Notes under the pieces: model-generated
The model's database searches: none
What the model saw: only the letters and a program-made list of their open reading frames with translations
What the model was told of the DNA's origin: nothing
From: Candidatus Tectimicrobiota bacterium
Lineage (GTDB): Bacteria > JACPSX01
Length of the DNA: 10,981 nt
Assembly (NCBI GenBank): GCA_016193065.1
Contig: JACPSX010000017.1
Span: 1-10,981 of the forward strand
Reading direction: 5' to 3'
Translations under genes and position numbers: made by a program
In this document: in pieces, positions 1 to 10,621 of the stretch
Layout: every line of letters begins with the position of its first letter
Position numbering within the stretch: position 1 is the first letter of the stretch

Positions 1-467
1 ATCCCGGGGATGGATATCCCTTCCGCATGGATGTCATAGCCGTTGGGGAAATACCCTCCCGGGTAGGCTCCCCCGGAATCCATCTGGTGGGCCCGGCACA
101 GGGTAAAGAACAGGAGCTCGCCCTTGTAGAAAATGGGGCGGTAGAACCCCCAGTCGGGCAAGTGGCAGCAATAGCCGTGGTAGGGGTCGTTGACCAGGAT
201 CACGTCCCCCGGATTCAAGTTCCCCTTGAACTTGTTCAGCACGTACTCCACGGAGAGCTTCCCCCCCAGGTACTGGATGGACAGGCCGATGGGGATGGCC
301 ACCGTGCGCCCCGTGCCGTCCCAGATCCCCATGGAGACGTCGTGGAGCTGGGCAATCAGGTAATTCTGGGCGGTGCGATCGATGACGTGGCGCATCTCCT
401 TGCAGGTATTCTGGAAGGAGTGCCACACGGTGGACAGAGTGAGGGGATCGACTCGACCGGCAACCAT
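1..467 (-). CDS. hyuB: Hydantoinase B / acetone carboxylase alpha-type subunit, N-terminal part (cut by window edge)
   Basis: The first 155 residues of a HyuB-family protein (N-methylhydantoinase / 5-oxoprolinase / acetone or acetophenone carboxylase) are readable; the rest lies beyond position 1 (full members are usually over 500 residues). In this family the B subunit pairs with HyuA, which uses ATP to activate the substrate. Visible family motifs are G-D-V-I-L-V-N-D-P-Y (87-96), H102-L-P-D, R-A-H-x2-D-x-G-G (125-133) and E-G-I-S-I-P (149-154). The His and Asp of the last two blocks correspond to the likely metal-binding region of acetone carboxylase-type enzymes. The ATG at 467 is chosen because it gives the usual N-terminus and has GGAGG (478-482) 10 nt upstream, lying inside the end of hyuA. 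The gap to the hyuA stop is 7 nt, so the two are co-transcribed. Odd detail: the usual Gly-Gly-Thr before the HLPD motif is replaced by Tyr-Cys-Cys. The substrate cannot be told from the sequence. Confidence 0.9.
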   Translation of the reverse strand, partial: MVAGRVDPLTLSTVWHSFQNTCKEMRHVIDRTAQNYLIAQLHDVSMGIWDGTGRTVAIPIGLSIQYLGGKLSVEYVLNKFKGNLNPGDVILVNDPYHGYCCHLPDWGFYRPIFYKGELLFFTLCRAHQMDSGGAYPGGYFPNGYDIHAEGISIPG

Positions 468-474
468 TCTCGTT

Positions 475-2547
475 TTACCTCCGGGTGAGGATGTAGTTTT
501 TCACGCCGTCAACACAGCAGCGGTAGGAAGACGGGATGACCACCGTCGTGGTCTTCTCCTCGACGATTGCCGGGCCTTCCAGTGTGTGCCCGGCGCGTAA
601 TTTGCTGCCATCATAAATCGGGGTGTCTTCATACCCCTTGGTCAGGTTCCACAGGACAGGACGGCGGCGCTTGAGGGCCTGATCGGCCTTCACTGTCGCC
701 TGCGGAATCTCGGCCAGCTTCAAGGGGTCCTGGCGCGCCGTGGCTTTGAGCCGCGCATTGAGGAACTCTACCTCCCGCCCGGGCATGTGGAACGTAAAGA
801 GATCCTGGTGGCGGCGGTGAAAGGCCTGCACGATCTCCTCCAGTTCCCGGGAACCGATCTTCCCGATAGGTACCTCGGTCACCTCCACCTCGTGGAACTG
901 CCCCAAATAGCGCATCTCCAGCGAGCGCCTCAGCACCGTATCCTGCGGGGAAATCCCAATCTCCCCCAGAACCTGGCGGGCCTCCACCTCCATCTCCGCA
1001 AAGAGCCGGTTCACCCGCTCCAGCTCCAACAAGCTCTTGCGGGAAATAATCGAGCGGGCAAAATCCCGCCCCACCTCCATGTTCAGCATCCCAAAGGCAC
1101 TGTAGGTGGCCGCATAGCGGGGGATGATCACCGTGGGAATCTCCAGAAGCTCGGCCAGGTGCGCCCCGTGCACGGGCCCCGCGCCCCCGCCCACCACCAG
1201 GGCAAAGTCCCGCACGTCGTAGCCCCGCTTGGTGGAAATCTCGGTCATCTTGTCGGCCATCACGGAATTGACCGTGGTGAAGATCGTGCGGGCCGCACTG
1301 GGGACATCGAGCCCCAGAGGCTCCCCCACGGTGCGGATCGCCTGCTCGGCCAGATCGGGCTTCAGGGGGATTTCTCCCCCCAAGAAGTAATCCGCCGGGA
1401 CGTAACCCAACATCAGGTCCGCGTCGGTCACCGTGGGCTGGGTGCCCCCCTTCCCGTAGCATGCGGGTCCCGGATCAGCACCCGCGCTTTGCGGACCCAC
1501 CTGCAGGAGCCTCAGGGAATTGATCCAGGCAATGCTCCCCCCGCCGGCCCCCACGCTGGGGACGTCCACCATCTTCATGGCCACCCGCTCATCCCCAACC
1601 CAGTTATAATCCGTCGTCGGGATCATCCCATCCCGGATCAGGCAGACGTCGTAGCTCGTGCCGCCCATGTCCACGGAGAACAGGTTGTTGCTGTGGATGC
1701 ACTGGCCCAGCCGGATGGCGCCCGCCGGAGCCGCGGCGGGGCCCGAGCCGATCAGGGAGACCGCCCGGCGCGCCGATTCCTCCACGGATTGAACCAGGCC
1801 CCCGCCCTGAACCAGGTAGAGCGTCCCCTTGAATCCAAGCTCCCTCAACCGGTTCGTTAGGGCCTTCAGGTAATTGGCAGTAATCGGCCCCACCGCAGCA
1901 CTGACCACCGTGGTGCTGAAGCGTTCGTATTCCCTGTAGACGGGGAGGACCTCGTGAGAAGCGGTCACATAGGTACCGTTCAATTCCTGCCGGCAGATCT
2001 CCAGTGCCCGCTTTTCATGGGCTGGGTTGATGTAGCTATGTAGAAAGCAGATGGCGACTGCTTCGACCTTGTCTTCCTTTAATTTCTTGATGGCGGCGTA
2101 AACGTCTTCTTCCTTTAGAGGCTTCAGGATCTCCCCCGTATGAATCGTTCTCTCCTCGACGGGGAGGCGTAAATAGCGCGGCACCAGGGGCTTGTACGGA
2201 GGAACAAAGACATTAAAGCGGGAGGTGCGGAGGTTTTTGTAGCCCCGGCGAATCTCGATGGTGTCCCGAAACCCTTTGGTGGCCATAAGTCCCACTTTGG
2301 CGATCCGGCCCGTCAGCAAGGCATTGGTGGACAAGGTGGTGCCGTGGGCAATGAGCAGTCCCACATTGGACATGAATTGCGGCAACTCCAGGCCGAAAAA
2401 CGCAGCCGCTTTCGTTAAGACATTGGTCAAGCCAAGAGTGGGATCCTGCGGTGTGGTTGGGGACTTAAAAGCATGAACTTGTCCCTGCTCGTCAAGGACG
2501 AGGCAGTCCGTAAAAGTCCCCCCCACGTCTATCGTGGTCTTGATCAT
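475..2547 (-). CDS. hyuA: Hydantoinase A / acetone carboxylase beta-type ATP-dependent subunit
   Basis: This 690-residue protein has the usual length of the HyuA/OplaH family, whose members hydrolyse ATP to activate cyclic amides or to drive carboxylation of ketones. The N-terminal hydantoinase/oxoprolinase domain has the phosphate-binding D-V-G-G-T-F-T-D (7-14) and H-G-T-T-x-x-T-N (68-75). The central hydantoinase A domain has V-D-M-G-G-T-S-Y-D (292-300), G-A-G-G-G-S (333-338), G-P-x-S-A-G-A-D-P-G-P-A-C-Y-G (351-365) and V-V-G-G-G-A-G-P-V-H-G (451-461). These are actin/Hsp70-type nucleotide-binding motifs, and none is missing. It is probably cytoplasmic: no signal peptide or membrane segment is seen. 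The ATG at 2547 has AAGGAG (2556-2561) at a spacing of 8 nt. It is the promoter-proximal gene of a hyuA-hyuB unit divergent from the regulator gene. Hydantoinase, oxoprolinase or ketone carboxylase activity cannot be separated from sequence alone; the anaerobic aromatic/2-oxoacid context makes a ketone carboxylase worth considering (inference). Confidence 0.93.
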   Translation of the reverse strand: MIKTTIDVGGTFTDCLVLDEQGQVHAFKSPTTPQDPTLGLTNVLTKAAAFFGLELPQFMSNVGLLIAHGTTLSTNALLTGRIAKVGLMATKGFRDTIEIRRGYKNLRTSRFNVFVPPYKPLVPRYLRLPVEERTIHTGEILKPLKEEDVYAAIKKLKEDKVEAVAICFLHSYINPAHEKRALEICRQELNGTYVTASHEVLPVYREYERFSTTVVSAAVGPITANYLKALTNRLRELGFKGTLYLVQGGGLVQSVEESARRAVSLIGSGPAAAPAGAIRLGQCIHSNNLFSVDMGGTSYDVCLIRDGMIPTTDYNWVGDERVAMKMVDVPSVGAGGGSIAWINSLRLLQVGPQSAGADPGPACYGKGGTQPTVTDADLMLGYVPADYFLGGEIPLKPDLAEQAIRTVGEPLGLDVPSAARTIFTTVNSVMADKMTEISTKRGYDVRDFALVVGGGAGPVHGAHLAELLEIPTVIIPRYAATYSAFGMLNMEVGRDFARSIISRKSLLELERVNRLFAEMEVEARQVLGEIGISPQDTVLRRSLEMRYLGQFHEVEVTEVPIGKIGSRELEEIVQAFHRRHQDLFTFHMPGREVEFLNARLKATARQDPLKLAEIPQATVKADQALKRRRPVLWNLTKGYEDTPIYDGSKLRAGHTLEGPAIVEEKTTTVVIPSSYRCCVDGVKNYILTRR

Positions 2548-2710: not shown

Positions 2711-2973
2711 CCAAGATTATTTTTGTAGCACGTTTTTCCCGGGAATAATCCCGCTCCTTTCGCCGTTTCTCTCCGCTGCATACGACTTTCCAGCACTGCT
2801 TTGGATGGCCTCTTCGGACCTTTCCCGCCACAGGCCCAGGGTAGGGAAAATGGCTCAAGAAAATGATGTAACTACATTCTGTACCGGGGCTGGGATCAAT
2901 GTTAATTCTTTCATGGTTGTTCTTCGAAAGGCGTGTTGGTCCATTGCCATCCCGGCGAGATCCGAAGGGACGG

Positions 2974-3672
2974 ATGACCATGCTGAAATGCCGTTGGGAA
3001 CTCTGCCCCCTGCGCCGCAACGGGATTCTCGCGGAGGAAAACGCCCAGCAGCTTGATGATTACCGGCGCCAGATCTACCCCAGTTTTTACGCCAAGCGCC
3101 AGGTCATCTTTCACGAGGGCAACCCCTGCTTGGGAATCCACGTGCTGTGTTCGGGAACAGTAAAACTGACCCAGACCGATCGCTTCGGTAGGATCCACCT
3201 GCTGAAAATCGTCAAGCCGGGAGACATCATCGGGGACATGGCAGCCTATGAATACCCGGTCTATGCGGTCACGGCCGAAACGGTCGAAAACTGTACGATC
3301 TGTTTTCTACCCAAAGCCGCCCTGCTCGAATTTCTGAACCGCCATTCCGACGTGGCTCTGCGCCTCATCTCCTTGCTGAGTCAGGAATTGCGCAACTCCC
3401 AGGAAAAGATGCGGGATTTCGCCCTGAAAGATGCCGAGGCTCGGCTGGCCACTTTCCTTACAAAACTCGGTGCCGATTACGGCGAGCGCAGCAAGGAAGG
3501 GGTCCGTTTTCGGCTCCCCTTGTCCCGCGGGGAGTTAGCCGAAGCCATCGGAGTCGCACCTGAGACCGTAATTCGCCTCCTGGGCAAGCTTTCCGAAAAA
3601 CGGATTCTAAAGGTCAGAGGCCGTCACTGCGTCATCTCGGACCCCAGCCGCCTGCAAAAGATCGCGGACTAA
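2974..3672 (+). CDS. Crp/Fnr-family transcriptional regulator
   Basis: This 232-residue protein has the Crp/Fnr two-domain layout. An N-terminal cyclic-nucleotide-binding-type beta-roll covers about 38-125 (V-I-F-H-E-G 44-49, S-G-T-V-K-L 60-65, P-G-D-I-I-G-D 82-88), a dimerisation helix about 125-155, and a C-terminal winged helix about 183-222 with L-A-E-A-I-G-V-A-P-E-T-V-I-R at 188-201. Glu197 and Arg201 match the FNR residues that read the TGA half-site; the FNR Ser between them is Ile200. Cysteines are C6, C11, C52, C59, C107, C110 and C219; by my alignment C107 falls on FNR Cys122, but the N-terminal CxxC of FNR is absent. The start at 2974 is chosen for its AAGGGA (2965-2970) and because homology starts here; an in-frame ATG at 2899 would add 25 residues with no domain and a poor ribosome-binding site, and ATG 2980 is also possible. 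Between two catabolic units, it probably controls one or both; its effector is unknown. Confidence 0.88.
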   Translation: MTMLKCRWELCPLRRNGILAEENAQQLDDYRRQIYPSFYAKRQVIFHEGNPCLGIHVLCSGTVKLTQTDRFGRIHLLKIVKPGDIIGDMAAYEYPVYAVTAETVENCTICFLPKAALLEFLNRHSDVALRLISLLSQELRNSQEKMRDFALKDAEARLATFLTKLGADYGERSKEGVRFRLPLSRGELAEAIGVAPETVIRLLGKLSEKRILKVRGRHCVISDPSRLQKIAD

Positions 3673-6094: not shown

Positions 6095-7264
6095 ATGGAA
6101 AGTCTCAAAGCGGGAGCGCAGGTCATCGAAGGGAACACCGCGGCGGTCATCGCTGCCGCCCTCGCCCGCGTGCAGGTGATTGCGGCTTACCCGATCACCC
6201 CCTCCAGCCCCATCGTGGAGAGCCTCTCCGATTTGTGCGCCCAAGGCAAACTCCAGGCCCGCTTTATTCCCGTGGAATCTGAACATTCCGCCATGGCCGC
6301 TTGCATTGGAGCGGCCATGACCGGATGCCGGACCTTTACGGCCACCTCTTCCCAAGGGCTGGCCCTCATGCACGAGCTTCTGCACTGGTCGGCCGGCAGC
6401 CGTCTTCCGATCGTTCTGGTAAATGTGAATCGGGCCCTGGCTCCCCCCTGGACCATCTTCTGCGACCAGAGCGATGCGTTCTCCCAAAGGGACACGGGGT
6501 GGATGCAGATTTACTGCGAAACCGCCCAGGAGGTTTTGGACTCGGTCCTGCAGGCATACCGGATCAGCGAGGAAGTCCTCCTGCCCTGCATGGTGAACAT
6601 GGACGGTTTCTATCTCTCCCACACCGCAGAGCCCGTAGAGGTTCCAGATCCTAAGGAAGTCGATTGCTTTTTGCCTGGTTTTGAACCCCGCTTCCATCTC
6701 GACGCAGCCGATCCTCATGCCTTCGGTGGGGGCACTGCACCGGCCCCCTACATGGAGTTTCGCCATCAGATGCAAGAGGCCATGGAGGAGGCCAAGGACC
6801 GGATCGTGAGGGTGGGTGAAGAATTCGGCCGGCAGTTCGGCCGTTCCTACGGCTTGCTGGAACTCTACCGGGCAGAGAATGCCTCCCTTCTGGTGGTCAC
6901 CTCGGGCTCGATCACCGGTACTGCGCGCGAAGCCGTGGACGGGCTCCGGGATCAAGGGCTCGCCGTAGGGCTGCTGCGGGTGCGGTTCCTGCGACCTTTT
7001 CCCGCTGAAGAGGTACGTCGGGCGGTTTCAAGCGCAGAAACTCTCCTGGTTCTGGACCGGGCCGTCTCTTACGGCCAGGGGGGCACCTTAGCCCAGGAAT
7101 TCAAGGCAGCCCTCTACGGCCAGGACCGGCTTCAAATTTTCTCGATCGTCATGGGACTCGGCGGCGCTCCGGTGACCCGGCAGATGATCGAGGAGACCAC
7201 CCTGATGGCCCTGGAGAGGACGCTGGATCCCTGCCGGTCTCACTGGCTTGGAGGAACGATATGA
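6095..7264 (+). CDS. 2-oxoacid:acceptor oxidoreductase, alpha subunit (PorA/PadG type)
   Basis: This 389-residue protein has the usual length of the alpha subunit of four-subunit 2-oxoacid oxidoreductases, which contributes the pyrimidine-binding side of the thiamine diphosphate active site and binds the 2-oxoacid. Motifs are E-G-N (12-14), A-Y-P-I-T-P-S-S-P-I (31-40), P-V-E-S-E-H (59-64), T-S-S-Q-G-L (84-89), C-D-Q-S-D (123-127), L-R-P-F-P (299-303) and D-R-A-V-S-Y-G-Q-G-G (321-330). The last two belong to the C-terminal transketolase-like domain. The ATG at 6095 follows the TAA of the previous gene directly, with GGGAG (6084-6088) 6 nt upstream, so translation is likely coupled. Its stop overlaps the next start as ATGA. 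Substrate specificity (pyruvate, branched-chain, aryl-glyoxylate or other) cannot be read here; the context favours a larger or aromatic 2-oxoacid (inference). Confidence 0.93.
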   Translation: MESLKAGAQVIEGNTAAVIAAALARVQVIAAYPITPSSPIVESLSDLCAQGKLQARFIPVESEHSAMAACIGAAMTGCRTFTATSSQGLALMHELLHWSAGSRLPIVLVNVNRALAPPWTIFCDQSDAFSQRDTGWMQIYCETAQEVLDSVLQAYRISEEVLLPCMVNMDGFYLSHTAEPVEVPDPKEVDCFLPGFEPRFHLDAADPHAFGGGTAPAPYMEFRHQMQEAMEEAKDRIVRVGEEFGRQFGRSYGLLELYRAENASLLVVTSGSITGTAREAVDGLRDQGLAVGLLRVRFLRPFPAEEVRRAVSSAETLLVLDRAVSYGQGGTLAQEFKAALYGQDRLQIFSIVMGLGGAPVTRQMIEETTLMALERTLDPCRSHWLGGTI

Positions 7265-9498
7265 TCGGCGCTCAACCTCCATTGTCCCTGCCCGCCCCGG
7301 AACTGATGGGGGCCGGCAACTTGGCCTGCGCAGGCTGCGGAGCCAACCTGGCCATGCGTCTGGCTTTGAAGGCCCTGGGAGAGAAGACCATCGTCCTGAT
7401 CCCCGCCTCTTGCTGGGCCGTCTTTGACGGCCCGTATCCGTTCTCCTCTCTGCGCGTCCCCCTGCTCCACGTGGCCTTTGAGGCAGCCGCTTCAACCGCT
7501 GCCGGCGTACGGGCAGGCCTTGCGGCCCGGGGAGATGATCAGACGCTGGTCATGGCGTGGGCAGGAGACGGGGGGACTTTCGACATCGGTCTGCAGGCCC
7601 TGTCTGCTGCGGCGGAGCGGAACGACGATTTCCTCTTTGTCTGCTATGACAATGAAGCCTACATGAACACGGGAATCCAGCGCAGTTCAGCCACGCCGCA
7701 GCAAGCTTGGACGACGACGACCCCCCTCCCAACTCCCAAAAGCCAGCCCAAGAAAAACATCATGGCCATCATGGCCGCCCATCGGATCCCTTATGGTGCT
7801 ACGGCCTGCGTAGCCTATCCCGAAGATTTGGTCGAAAAATTCCGGACCGCCCGGGAGATTCGAGGGTTCCGGTTTATCCACCTTCTAGCGCCCTGCCCCC
7901 CGGGGTGGAAGTGTGACCCCTCGCTCACGGTAACCCTGGGGAGGCTCGCGGTCAGGAGCTGTTACTTCCCTCTCTATGAGGTTCGTGCGGGGAAGAACTA
8001 CCGGATCACCATTCAGGAAAACCAGACTCCCCTCCAGGATTACGTGGCCCCCCAAGGGAGGTTCCAACACCTCACCTCGGCGGACATAGAAACCCTGGAA
8101 CGGGAAGTTCAAGAAGAATGGCAGAGGCTCCAGAGTTGCGCCTCATCGCAGACTCCGCCTTCCAGCATCCAGTTCGTCCCCATCCGGAGGAAAAAGACCA
8201 TGTATTGGGAAAAAGAGATGGAGTGCATGCCCCGTGAAGAGCTCAGGACCGTTCAGCTTCGCAGGCTGAGGGATACGGTACAGCGTGTTTCGGAAAAGGT
8301 CCCCTTCTACCAGGCAATCCTCAAGGAAAGAGGGGTGCAGGCGGACGACATCCGCTCCCTGGAAGACATAAAGGGCTTGCCTTTCACACTGAAGGACGAC
8401 TTCCGCAAGACCTATCCGTTTGGCCTCTTTGCCGTTCCGCTCAAAGAAATCGGCCGGATTCATGCCTCCTCGGGAACCACGGGGAAACCCATTCTGGGCG
8501 GGTACACACGCAAGGATCTAGATCTGTGGAGCGATCTCATGGCCCGCACGTTGACAGCGGGCTCCGTCACCCACGAAGACGTGGTGCAGAACGGCTACGG
8601 CTACGGCCTTTTCACGGGCGGGTTGGGCTTCCACATGGGAGCCGAGCGCATCGGAGCTGTGGTCATCCCTATGTCGGCGAGCGCTACAGACAGGCAAATC
8701 CTGTTCATGCAGGACCTGGGTCCCACAGTCCTTACCTGCACCCCCTCCTTTGCCCTTTACCTGGCAGAGACCATGGAGGGCATGGGAATCGACCCGCGCA
8801 AGCTCAAGCTGCGGGTGGGATTCTTCGGCGCCGAGCCTTGGACCGCGGAAGCCCGCCGCCAGATCGAGGAAAAACTCGGCTTGAGAGCCCATGACATATA
8901 CGGCCTCACGGAGATCATCGGGCCCGGAGTTTCAGTGGAGTGCGAGGCTCAAAACGGACTCCATTTGAACGAGGATCACTTCTACCCGGAGCTGATCAAT
9001 CCCGACACCCTGGAGCCCGTGGGCCCCGGCGAACCGGGGGAGCTTGTGCTGACCACCCTGACCAAGGAAGCTCTGTCGGTCCTCCGCTATCGCACCCGGG
9101 ACATCACCACCCTGAACTGGAGTCCCTGTGAATGCGGGCGTACCCTGGTCCGCATGGGGAAGGTTCTCGGTCGCAGCGACGACATGCTCATATACAGGGG
9201 AGCCAACCTCTACCCCTCTCAGGTGGAGGGCCTCCTCTTCGCCTTTGCGGAGCTGGAGCCCATCTATCTGATTGTCCTGAGCCGGGAAAAGCAACGCGAT
9301 GAACTTGAGATCCGGGTGGAGGCCAAGCCCGAGATTTACCGGGGTGGCCCCACAGCCCTCATGGAACTGGCCCAACGGATCCAGAACAAGTTCCGGGACT
9401 TCATCAACCTGTCTCCCAGGATCTCCGTGGTGGAGAGGGGATCCATCGAGCGCAGCATCGGCAAGGCCAAGCGGGTTATGGACCTGCGGGCGCAATAG
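7261..9498 (+). CDS. 2-oxoacid oxidoreductase beta subunit fused to phenylacetate-CoA ligase-type domain (PorB-PaaK fusion)
   Basis: This single open frame of 745 residues joins two complete enzymes. Residues 1 to about 291 are a thiamine-diphosphate-binding beta subunit: C23-x2-C26, C51 and C212 match the [4Fe-4S] ligands of the family, G-D-G-G-T-F-D-I-G (102-110) with N131-E-A-Y-M-N-T-G-I-Q-R-S is the ThDP/Mg site. A Ser/Pro-rich linker (about 292-313) follows. Residues 314-745 are a full-length PaaK-type AMP-forming ligase: S-S-G-T-T-G-K-P (403-410), Y-G-L-T-E (547-551), Y-R-T-R-D (610-614), G-R-S-D-D-M-L (637-643) and the A10 segment G-K-A-K-R-V (734-739). The start is ATG 7261 with GGAGG (7250-7254) 6 nt upstream, overlapping the alpha gene by 4 nt. 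An internal ribosome-binding site and ATG at 8200 sit exactly at the junction, so free ligase may also be made. A lost stop codon between two former genes is the likely origin; a sequencing error is less likely since no stop lies nearby in the other frames. Confidence 0.9.
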   Translation: MIGAQPPLSLPAPELMGAGNLACAGCGANLAMRLALKALGEKTIVLIPASCWAVFDGPYPFSSLRVPLLHVAFEAAASTAAGVRAGLAARGDDQTLVMAWAGDGGTFDIGLQALSAAAERNDDFLFVCYDNEAYMNTGIQRSSATPQQAWTTTTPLPTPKSQPKKNIMAIMAAHRIPYGATACVAYPEDLVEKFRTAREIRGFRFIHLLAPCPPGWKCDPSLTVTLGRLAVRSCYFPLYEVRAGKNYRITIQENQTPLQDYVAPQGRFQHLTSADIETLEREVQEEWQRLQSCASSQTPPSSIQFVPIRRKKTMYWEKEMECMPREELRTVQLRRLRDTVQRVSEKVPFYQAILKERGVQADDIRSLEDIKGLPFTLKDDFRKTYPFGLFAVPLKEIGRIHASSGTTGKPILGGYTRKDLDLWSDLMARTLTAGSVTHEDVVQNGYGYGLFTGGLGFHMGAERIGAVVIPMSASATDRQILFMQDLGPTVLTCTPSFALYLAETMEGMGIDPRKLKLRVGFFGAEPWTAEARRQIEEKLGLRAHDIYGLTEIIGPGVSVECEAQNGLHLNEDHFYPELINPDTLEPVGPGEPGELVLTTLTKEALSVLRYRTRDITTLNWSPCECGRTLVRMGKVLGRSDDMLIYRGANLYPSQVEGLLFAFAELEPIYLIVLSREKQRDELEIRVEAKPEIYRGGPTALMELAQRIQNKFRDFINLSPRISVVERGSIERSIGKAKRVMDLRAQ
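8186..8202 (+). promoter_or_regulatory. Internal Shine-Dalgarno and ATG at the PorB-PaaK junction
   Basis: GGAGG at 8186-8190, 9 nt ahead of ATG 8200-8202, lies in frame inside the fused gene and exactly where a stand-alone PaaK would begin. This is as good a site as those of the real gene starts here. It suggests either a relic of an ancestral gene start or a working second start. Confidence 0.6.
8200..9498 (+). other. PaaK-type CoA ligase module, possible separate product from an internal start
   Basis: From M314 the frame encodes 432 residues, the normal length of bacterial phenylacetate-CoA ligases, with nothing missing at the N-terminus (M-Y-W-E-K-E-M-E at the start, then L-R-D-T-V-Q-R-V-S-E-K-V-P-F-Y). 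The family activates phenylacetate or related aryl and indole acids with ATP to the acyl-AMP and then the CoA ester. If translated alone, the cell would hold both the fused subunit and the free ligase. In the Azoarcus phenylacetate/phenylglyoxylate cluster the ligase (PadJ) is a separate gene beside the oxidoreductase genes. Acid specificity is not readable from sequence. Confidence 0.5.
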
Positions 9499-9508
9499 GA
9501 GACCACCC

Positions 9509-10621
9509 ATGGCAAGAATTGCCGTCATCCCCGGAGACGGCATCGGCGTGGACGTCACCCGGGAAGCCATCAAGGTCCTGGAGACCTTAAGGGAGCTGAT
9601 GGGGACTCCACTGGAACTCGTCGAGTTCGATCTGGGCGCCGAGCGAACCCTGAGGACAGGGGTGTCCCTTCCTCCAGGAACCTTCGAGGATTTCCGGCAA
9701 AACTACGATGGGATCTTCCTGGGCGCCCTGGGGGACCCGCGGATTCCCGACATGTCTCACGCCCGGGAGATCCTCCTGGAGATGCGCTTTCAACTGGATC
9801 TCTACATCAACCACCGCCCCGTCCGCCTCCTGGACGAATCCCTCTGCCCTCTGAAAGGTAAAGGAGTAAGCGACGTCAACTTCGTGGTCTTCCGGGAAAA
9901 CACCGAGGGGCTCTATGTGGGCATCGGAGGAATCTTCAAGAAGGGGACGCCGGATGAGGTGGCCCTTCAGGAAGAAGTGAACACCCGCAAGGGGGTCGAG
10001 AGGATCATTCGCCACAGTTTTGAGTACGCCCGGGCCCATGGCCTGGGCAAGGTGACCATGGCGGACAAGAGCAACGCCCTGCGCTACGGCCACGATCTCT
10101 GGCAGCGTGCCTTCCAGGAAGTGGCAGCGGAGTACCCGGAAGTGGAAGCGGAGCATCTCTTCATCGATGCCCTGACCATGCAGATGATCCGCAAACCGGA
10201 GCAATTCCAGGTCATCGTGACGAACAACATGTTTGGCGACATTATCACAGATCTCGGCGCTGCACTCCAGGGCGGGCTGGGCATGGCGGCTTCCGGGAAC
10301 ATCAACCCGAACGGTGTCTCCATGTTCGAGCCGGTCCACGGGTCAGCTCCAAAGTATGCGGGGCAGAACGTGGCCAATCCCATCGGGGCCGTCCTCACGG
10401 CGCAGATGATGCTCCAGCACCTGGGCTTCCCACGGGAGGCGGCGGTGGTGGAAGAGGCAGTCGTGGAGGCAATCCGCCGCCGGCAAGTGACGCGTGACCT
10501 GGGAGGCCCTCTGGGCACGCGAGAGGTAGGGGATTTCATCCGTCGGGAGATCGGTGAATTGGCCAAAACCATGACGCACGGCAACTCATTGGGGCGTGCG
10601 ACGGGCACCCGTCCATCGTGA
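9509..10621 (+). CDS. Isocitrate/isopropylmalate dehydrogenase-family beta-decarboxylating dehydrogenase
   Basis: This 370-residue enzyme belongs to the family that oxidises a 3-substituted malate and removes CO2 to give a 2-oxoacid, with NAD(P)+ and Mg/Mn. Motifs are G-D-G-I-G (9-13), the substrate arginines of R93, R103 and R129 (V-F-R-E-N), Y136, Lys187 in M-A-D-K-S-N-A-L, and the metal aspartates D220, D244 and D248 (M-F-G-D-I-I-T-D). The cofactor loop reads H-G-S-A-P-K-Y-A-G-Q (277-286); the Lys-Tyr pair is that of NADP-isocitrate dehydrogenase rather than the Asp-Ile of NAD-type LeuB. The substrate region (P-R-I-P-D-M-S-H-A-R-E-I-L-L) is neither typical LeuB nor Icd, so isopropylmalate, tartrate, homoisocitrate or another alkyl-malate is possible. 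The start is ATG 9509 with AGGAG (9497-9501), which overlaps the stop of the preceding gene; the frame is open farther upstream, but that part overlaps the ligase domain and lacks family sequence. Confidence 0.88.
   Translation: MARIAVIPGDGIGVDVTREAIKVLETLRELMGTPLELVEFDLGAERTLRTGVSLPPGTFEDFRQNYDGIFLGALGDPRIPDMSHAREILLEMRFQLDLYINHRPVRLLDESLCPLKGKGVSDVNFVVFRENTEGLYVGIGGIFKKGTPDEVALQEEVNTRKGVERIIRHSFEYARAHGLGKVTMADKSNALRYGHDLWQRAFQEVAAEYPEVEAEHLFIDALTMQMIRKPEQFQVIVTNNMFGDIITDLGAALQGGLGMAASGNINPNGVSMFEPVHGSAPKYAGQNVANPIGAVLTAQMMLQHLGFPREAAVVEEAVVEAIRRRQVTRDLGGPLGTREVGDFIRREIGELAKTMTHGNSLGRATGTRPS

Follow-up and report, generated by a model that had tools for sequence, protein, structure and literature searches.

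The window analyzed here, a 10,981-nt stretch from Candidatus Tectimicrobiota, belongs to a 2.9-Mb MAG (294 contigs, 86% completeness). It carries an operon for a four-part 2-oxoacid:acceptor oxidoreductase (PorC, GltD-PorD, PorA, and PorB) and a PaaK-type AMP-forming ligase (Table 1). The last two of these share a single frame, which opens with an ATG, overlaps the PorA gene by 4 nt (ATGA at 7261–7264), and runs for 745 codons with zero internal stops. Residues 1–745 were matched as a single unit in a search of the host genome, and Pfam assigns TPP_enzyme_C to residues 69–207, AMP-binding to 403–597, and AMP-binding_C_2 to 647–743. Within the fused frame, 22 linker residues connect a full-length PorB-type beta subunit to a full-length PaaK-type ligase.

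Table 1. Features of the window in order of position, with the evidence for each
Feature	Position	Strand	Evidence
PorC-type gamma subunit, 196 aa	3822..4412	+	Pfam POR PF01558 (1.8e-29); TIGR02175 above cut-off
GltD-like NAD(P)/FAD subunit with PorD-like C-terminal 4Fe-4S domain, 565 aa	4397..6094	+	PRK12771, 513.9 bits (cut-off 516); PorD models, ~503–557
PorA-type alpha subunit, 389 aa	6095..7264	+	Pfam POR_N, PFOR_II
Fused PorB-ligase frame, 745 aa	7261..9498	+	ORF; Pfam; single match in own genome
PorB beta-subunit domain, residues 1–291 (C23, C26, C51, C212, GDGGTFDIG)	7261..8133	+	Pfam; NCBIfam; alignment; structure model
Linker, 22 residues (292–313), probably once the PorB end and the gene boundary	8134..8199	+	PorB ends of relatives; low model confidence; weak coding signal
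GGAGG, Shine-Dalgarno-like, 9 nt before ATG 8200	8186..8190	+	Sequence
PaaK-type acyl-CoA ligase domain, 432 aa (residues 314–745), ancestral start at 8200	8200..9498	+	Pfam; NCBIfam; alignment; PDB relatives
LeuB-like 3-isopropylmalate/tartrate dehydrogenase family gene, same operon	9509..10621	+	PRK03437, 414.8 bits (cut-off 393)
LeuC-like (aconitase family) gene start, cut by contig end	10629..10979	+	TIGR02083, 5e-38 over first 114 positions

Beyond the ligase, the operon continues with the LeuB-like and LeuC-like genes. A canonical-looking LeuB (the label is our reading of its sequence) lies on another contig of the host genome; since LeuB is encoded there, the pair in the operon probably serves another acid, and these genes may, together with the oxidoreductase and ligase, form a 2-oxoacid conversion chain for such an acid. 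The host genome contains a further LeuB-like/LeuC-like pair (L183:672–3010); its identity to the LeuB-like protein of the window is 36%. Divergent from the operon is a HyuB/HyuA-like pair (3–2547, minus strand), whose best NCBIfam matches, to caprolactamase and acetophenone carboxylase subunits, stay below the cut-offs. A gene for a CRP/FNR-family regulator (2899–3672, plus strand), likely a local regulator, separates the oxidoreductase operon from the HyuA gene.

PorB/VorB-type membership of the first half of the fused frame is indicated by the ThDP-binding motif and the four cluster cysteines, and by the genes for the partner alpha, gamma, and delta subunits (PorA, PorC, and GltD-PorD) upstream in the operon. 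The cysteines C23, C26, C51, and C212, singled out in the earlier note, are invariant across 36 PorB sequences, all 63 of the 63 columns conserved at ≥95% are kept, and PDB 9bt4 and 5c4i are solved relatives. The ligase half carries SSGTTGKP, YGLTE, and YRTRD, together with an AMP-binding_C_2 domain (PF14535, 4.4e-24) with the C-terminal GK..R; it keeps 59 of the 61 columns conserved at ≥95% among 72 ligases and has solved relatives in PDB 2y27 and 4r1l. From their sequences both domains look catalytically intact, and the earlier description of a single open frame with two full domains is borne out by ORF reading, Pfam, and conserved columns alike. The best NCBIfam matches are PorB/VorB-type models for one half and PaaK models for the other; these make the family of each half sure but assign no substrate, because all the scores fall below the substrate-specific cut-offs. 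The PorB half misses the substrate-named models PRK11864 (VOR-type, 388.3) and PRK11865 (PorB, 350.1), in both cases against 405, and the PadI (phenylglyoxylate dehydrogenase) equivalog is not reached either (217.8 vs. a cut-off of 700): this model, of 443 positions, has an N-terminal part absent from the window frame, and the match begins at profile position 151. The ligase half scores 525.9 bits against the PaaK equivalog TIGR02155, vs. a cut-off of 646.3, and the label "phenylacetate"-CoA ligase that had been proposed for it is not established.

The joint between the two halves has much in common with a gene boundary. The structure model has a confident C-terminal helix at residues 273–295 of the PorB half; the PorB proteins of relatives end a few to ~20 residues past a conserved W, and those of five relatives terminate within ~20 residues of the equivalent of residue 290. 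Model confidence is low at 298–322, which supports a linker that appears disordered or flexible; modeled without relatives, the ligase part came out poor and was left aside, and it gives no information on domain packing. From the last conserved PorB residues it is 69 nt to ATG 8200. This ATG encodes M314, which in the alignment coincides with the first Met of free ligases, and the GGAGG before it is a 5-nt Shine-Dalgarno match at the proper distance; among the 59 further internal ATGs that lie in frame within genes of the window, just 2 share this feature. Both elements had been pointed out in the earlier note and both hold; judging from the alignment, the internal ATG is the ancestral ligase start, its ribosome-binding site kept. 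By codon score the linker ranks in the 4.7th percentile when compared with coding stretches and in the 88th when compared with intergenic stretches, and it therefore resembles a former spacer more, though 23 codons cannot settle the matter. The computed chance that 23 codons contain no stop is 0.48; with one in three gene pairs in frame, in-frame run-on after the loss of a stop would be expected in ~1/6 of cases.

The same layout—a usual PorB end, a short spacing, a Shine-Dalgarno sequence, and an ATG at the normal ligase start—is also consistent with two genes that are truly separate, the PorB stop having been erased by an assembly base error or by a minority strain variant. Such an explanation draws further on the linker, in which 8 of 23 codons are one substitution away from a stop, on the contig number and incompleteness of the MAG, and on the stops found at the joint in related operons (below). 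However, all other window genes checked are open, without frameshifts or stops; the contig is thus not error-rich, making a base error less likely. An error would also need to strike one of three particular bases, and consensus substitution errors are rare in assembled short reads. We therefore regard separate genes as unlikely, albeit with an appreciable probability.

Separate genes are nonetheless what relatives possess. At four loci in the Methylomirabilota phylum (L167, L170, L175, and L176), a ligase 57–58% identical to that of the window lies directly 3′ of PorB, and three of these four genomes show the whole order PorC-PorD-PorA-PorB-ligase. In L167, L175, and L176, the PorB stop and the ligase start form a 4-nt overlap (ATGA) behind a Shine-Dalgarno-like GGGAGGAG; in L170, PorB ends with TAG, followed by a 147-nt gap to the ligase. 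Given these stops, the known state is two genes, tightly coupled in three cases, and the earlier claim that the two proteins are normally separate is upheld: the relatives checked for a stop at the joint yielded two clean genes at all four loci, and none carries the fusion. These clean genes are one half of the pattern that the earlier note took as counting against a fusion; nothing points to the other half, a base-call error. In heteromeric complexes, short overlaps between the genes for the subunits are enriched (PMC10666635). These operons resemble that of the window in gene order (three complete cases) and in having ligases of a sister clade; they differ in the stop between the genes, in a PorB that is 47–52% identical (complete sequences), and in their surroundings, where LeuB/LeuC-like neighbors were not found. 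Among the 80 PorB loci closest to that of the window (up to 63% identity), most have the PorC-PorD-PorA-PorB cluster, and no ligase is present in any of the flanks retrieved.

Ligases of this kind have other partners as well. PaaK-type ligases of the same family often adjoin IorA/IorB (indolepyruvate oxidoreductase) in other genomes, an arrangement that, like the window, sets a ligase directly beside a 2-oxoacid oxidoreductase but involves another oxidoreductase class and separate genes; the pairing is therefore ordinary, and the covalent join alone is new. In the anaerobic phenylacetate (Pad) pathway, the ligase PadJ and the phenylglyoxylate oxidoreductase PadEFGHI serve one route (PMC5109826). 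Here too an acyl-CoA ligase is paired, in a pathway, with a multi-subunit 2-oxoacid oxidoreductase, though as separate proteins.

The two halves of the frame differ in their apparent affinities. In two quick trees, each with SH-aLRT as its sole support measure, the ligase half falls, on a long branch, as the sister (SH-aLRT 90) of a Methylomirabilota-phylum clade that holds all the POR-linked ligases, whereas the window PorB groups with a ligase-free Methylomirabilota PorB and with Elusimicrobia (SH-aLRT 97), apart from the ligase-linked PorBs, its identity to which (47–52%) is lower than to others (60–63%). Since the PorB branch differs from that of the ligase-linked PorBs, the pairing may have arisen repeatedly, or oxidoreductase genes may have been exchanged; the Methylomirabilota operons may, by their sequences, be parallel cases rather than the direct ancestor of the fusion. 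As for the host, its RpoB is nearest that of a Methylomirabilota genome (64%) and then Desulfobacterota among 35 named genomes; a 16S rRNA was not found in the host genome. A difference in closest lineage between PorB and ligase could also arise from a chimeric assembly, in which two unrelated contigs were joined inside the frame. But the occurrence of the same gene order in other genomes speaks against a chimera, as does a junction that is in frame and at a natural gene boundary, and we consider this origin very improbable.

No second fused frame was found in ~1,275 genomes or in plasmids. The genomes comprised 386 from across the domain, 95 of the Methylomirabilota phylum (G067), 395 of the G083 phylum (Desulfacinum), and 400 of the G059 phylum (Anaerolineae MAG); the last two sets were searched at an E-value of 1e-168, meant to pass fused relatives alone, and are thus silent on separate genes. 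The literature searches made turned up no paper on a fusion between a PaaK ligase and a ferredoxin oxidoreductase. The fusion of these operon neighbors is so far unique—known from one MAG contig, with the host the sole genome of its phylum in the comparison set—and does not amount to a new type of system. In G+C-rich genomes (G509, G502, G426, and others), long open frames surrounding ligases initially appeared fusion-like and were rejected: in L167, L170, L173, L175, and L176, the upstream PorB or IorB either lies in a different frame or terminates with a stop codon of its own, and the remaining long ligase frames of such genomes showed no oxidoreductase domain.

It is conceivable that the frame encodes an old, selected bifunctional enzyme, made in tethered form only and channeling acyl-CoA between ligase and oxidoreductase. 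Both domains are intact, acyl-CoA is a substrate or product common to both, and the linker, as modeled, looks flexible. The retention of a Shine-Dalgarno sequence and of the ancestral ATG argues against such an enzyme, however, as do the weak codon score of the linker and the lack of a second example in the genomes searched, and we think it quite unlikely.

A stop-loss fusion of adjacent operon genes, PorB and a PaaK-type ligase, which would yield the fusion and probably also free ligase, is the explanation that we find likely. The PorB stop would have been lost, and translation would then have continued through a short old spacer, now part of the flexible linker, to enter the ligase in frame. 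A mix of fusion and free 432-aa ligase would be expected, because the Shine-Dalgarno sequence and start codon of the ligase (8186–8202) persist. Against this account stand the occurrence of the fusion on a single MAG contig and in no close relative, the alternative that the lost stop is an assembly error or strain variant, and the position of the window PorB outside the group of PorBs from ligase-linked operons. On balance, the fusion is probably real and recent, and the loss of a stop is its most likely cause. The open frame, the intact motifs, the two-gene operon of relatives, and the ancestral start with its Shine-Dalgarno sequence are observed, whereas the expression of both products, the reaction direction, the substrate, and any benefit of the tether are inferred. 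Acyl-CoA is common to both enzymes: the ligase may convert a free acid to acyl-CoA, which would then be reductively carboxylated to a 2-oxoacid, or may instead remove the acyl-CoA that arises from oxidative decarboxylation, releasing the acid; the sequence does not decide between these directions.

It is only a possibility that the fusion channels acyl-CoA, and PMC4921024 notes findings in which simple fusion did not promote channeling. A bifunctional subunit, in which each beta subunit carries a ligase, fusion and free ligase are both output, and acyl-CoA passes directly between activation and (de)carboxylation, seems unlikely. The understanding of either enzyme family is unchanged by the fusion. 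Should the tethered product exist, it would provide a natural system in which to ask whether acyl-CoA transfer improves when a CoA ligase is tied to a 2-oxoacid oxidoreductase. More broadly, this is a case of the Rosetta Stone type: the fusion, together with the 4-nt overlaps in relatives, indicates cooperation of a PaaK-type ligase with a VOR/POR-like oxidoreductase, a reading that helps to annotate both enzymes in uncultured bacteria.
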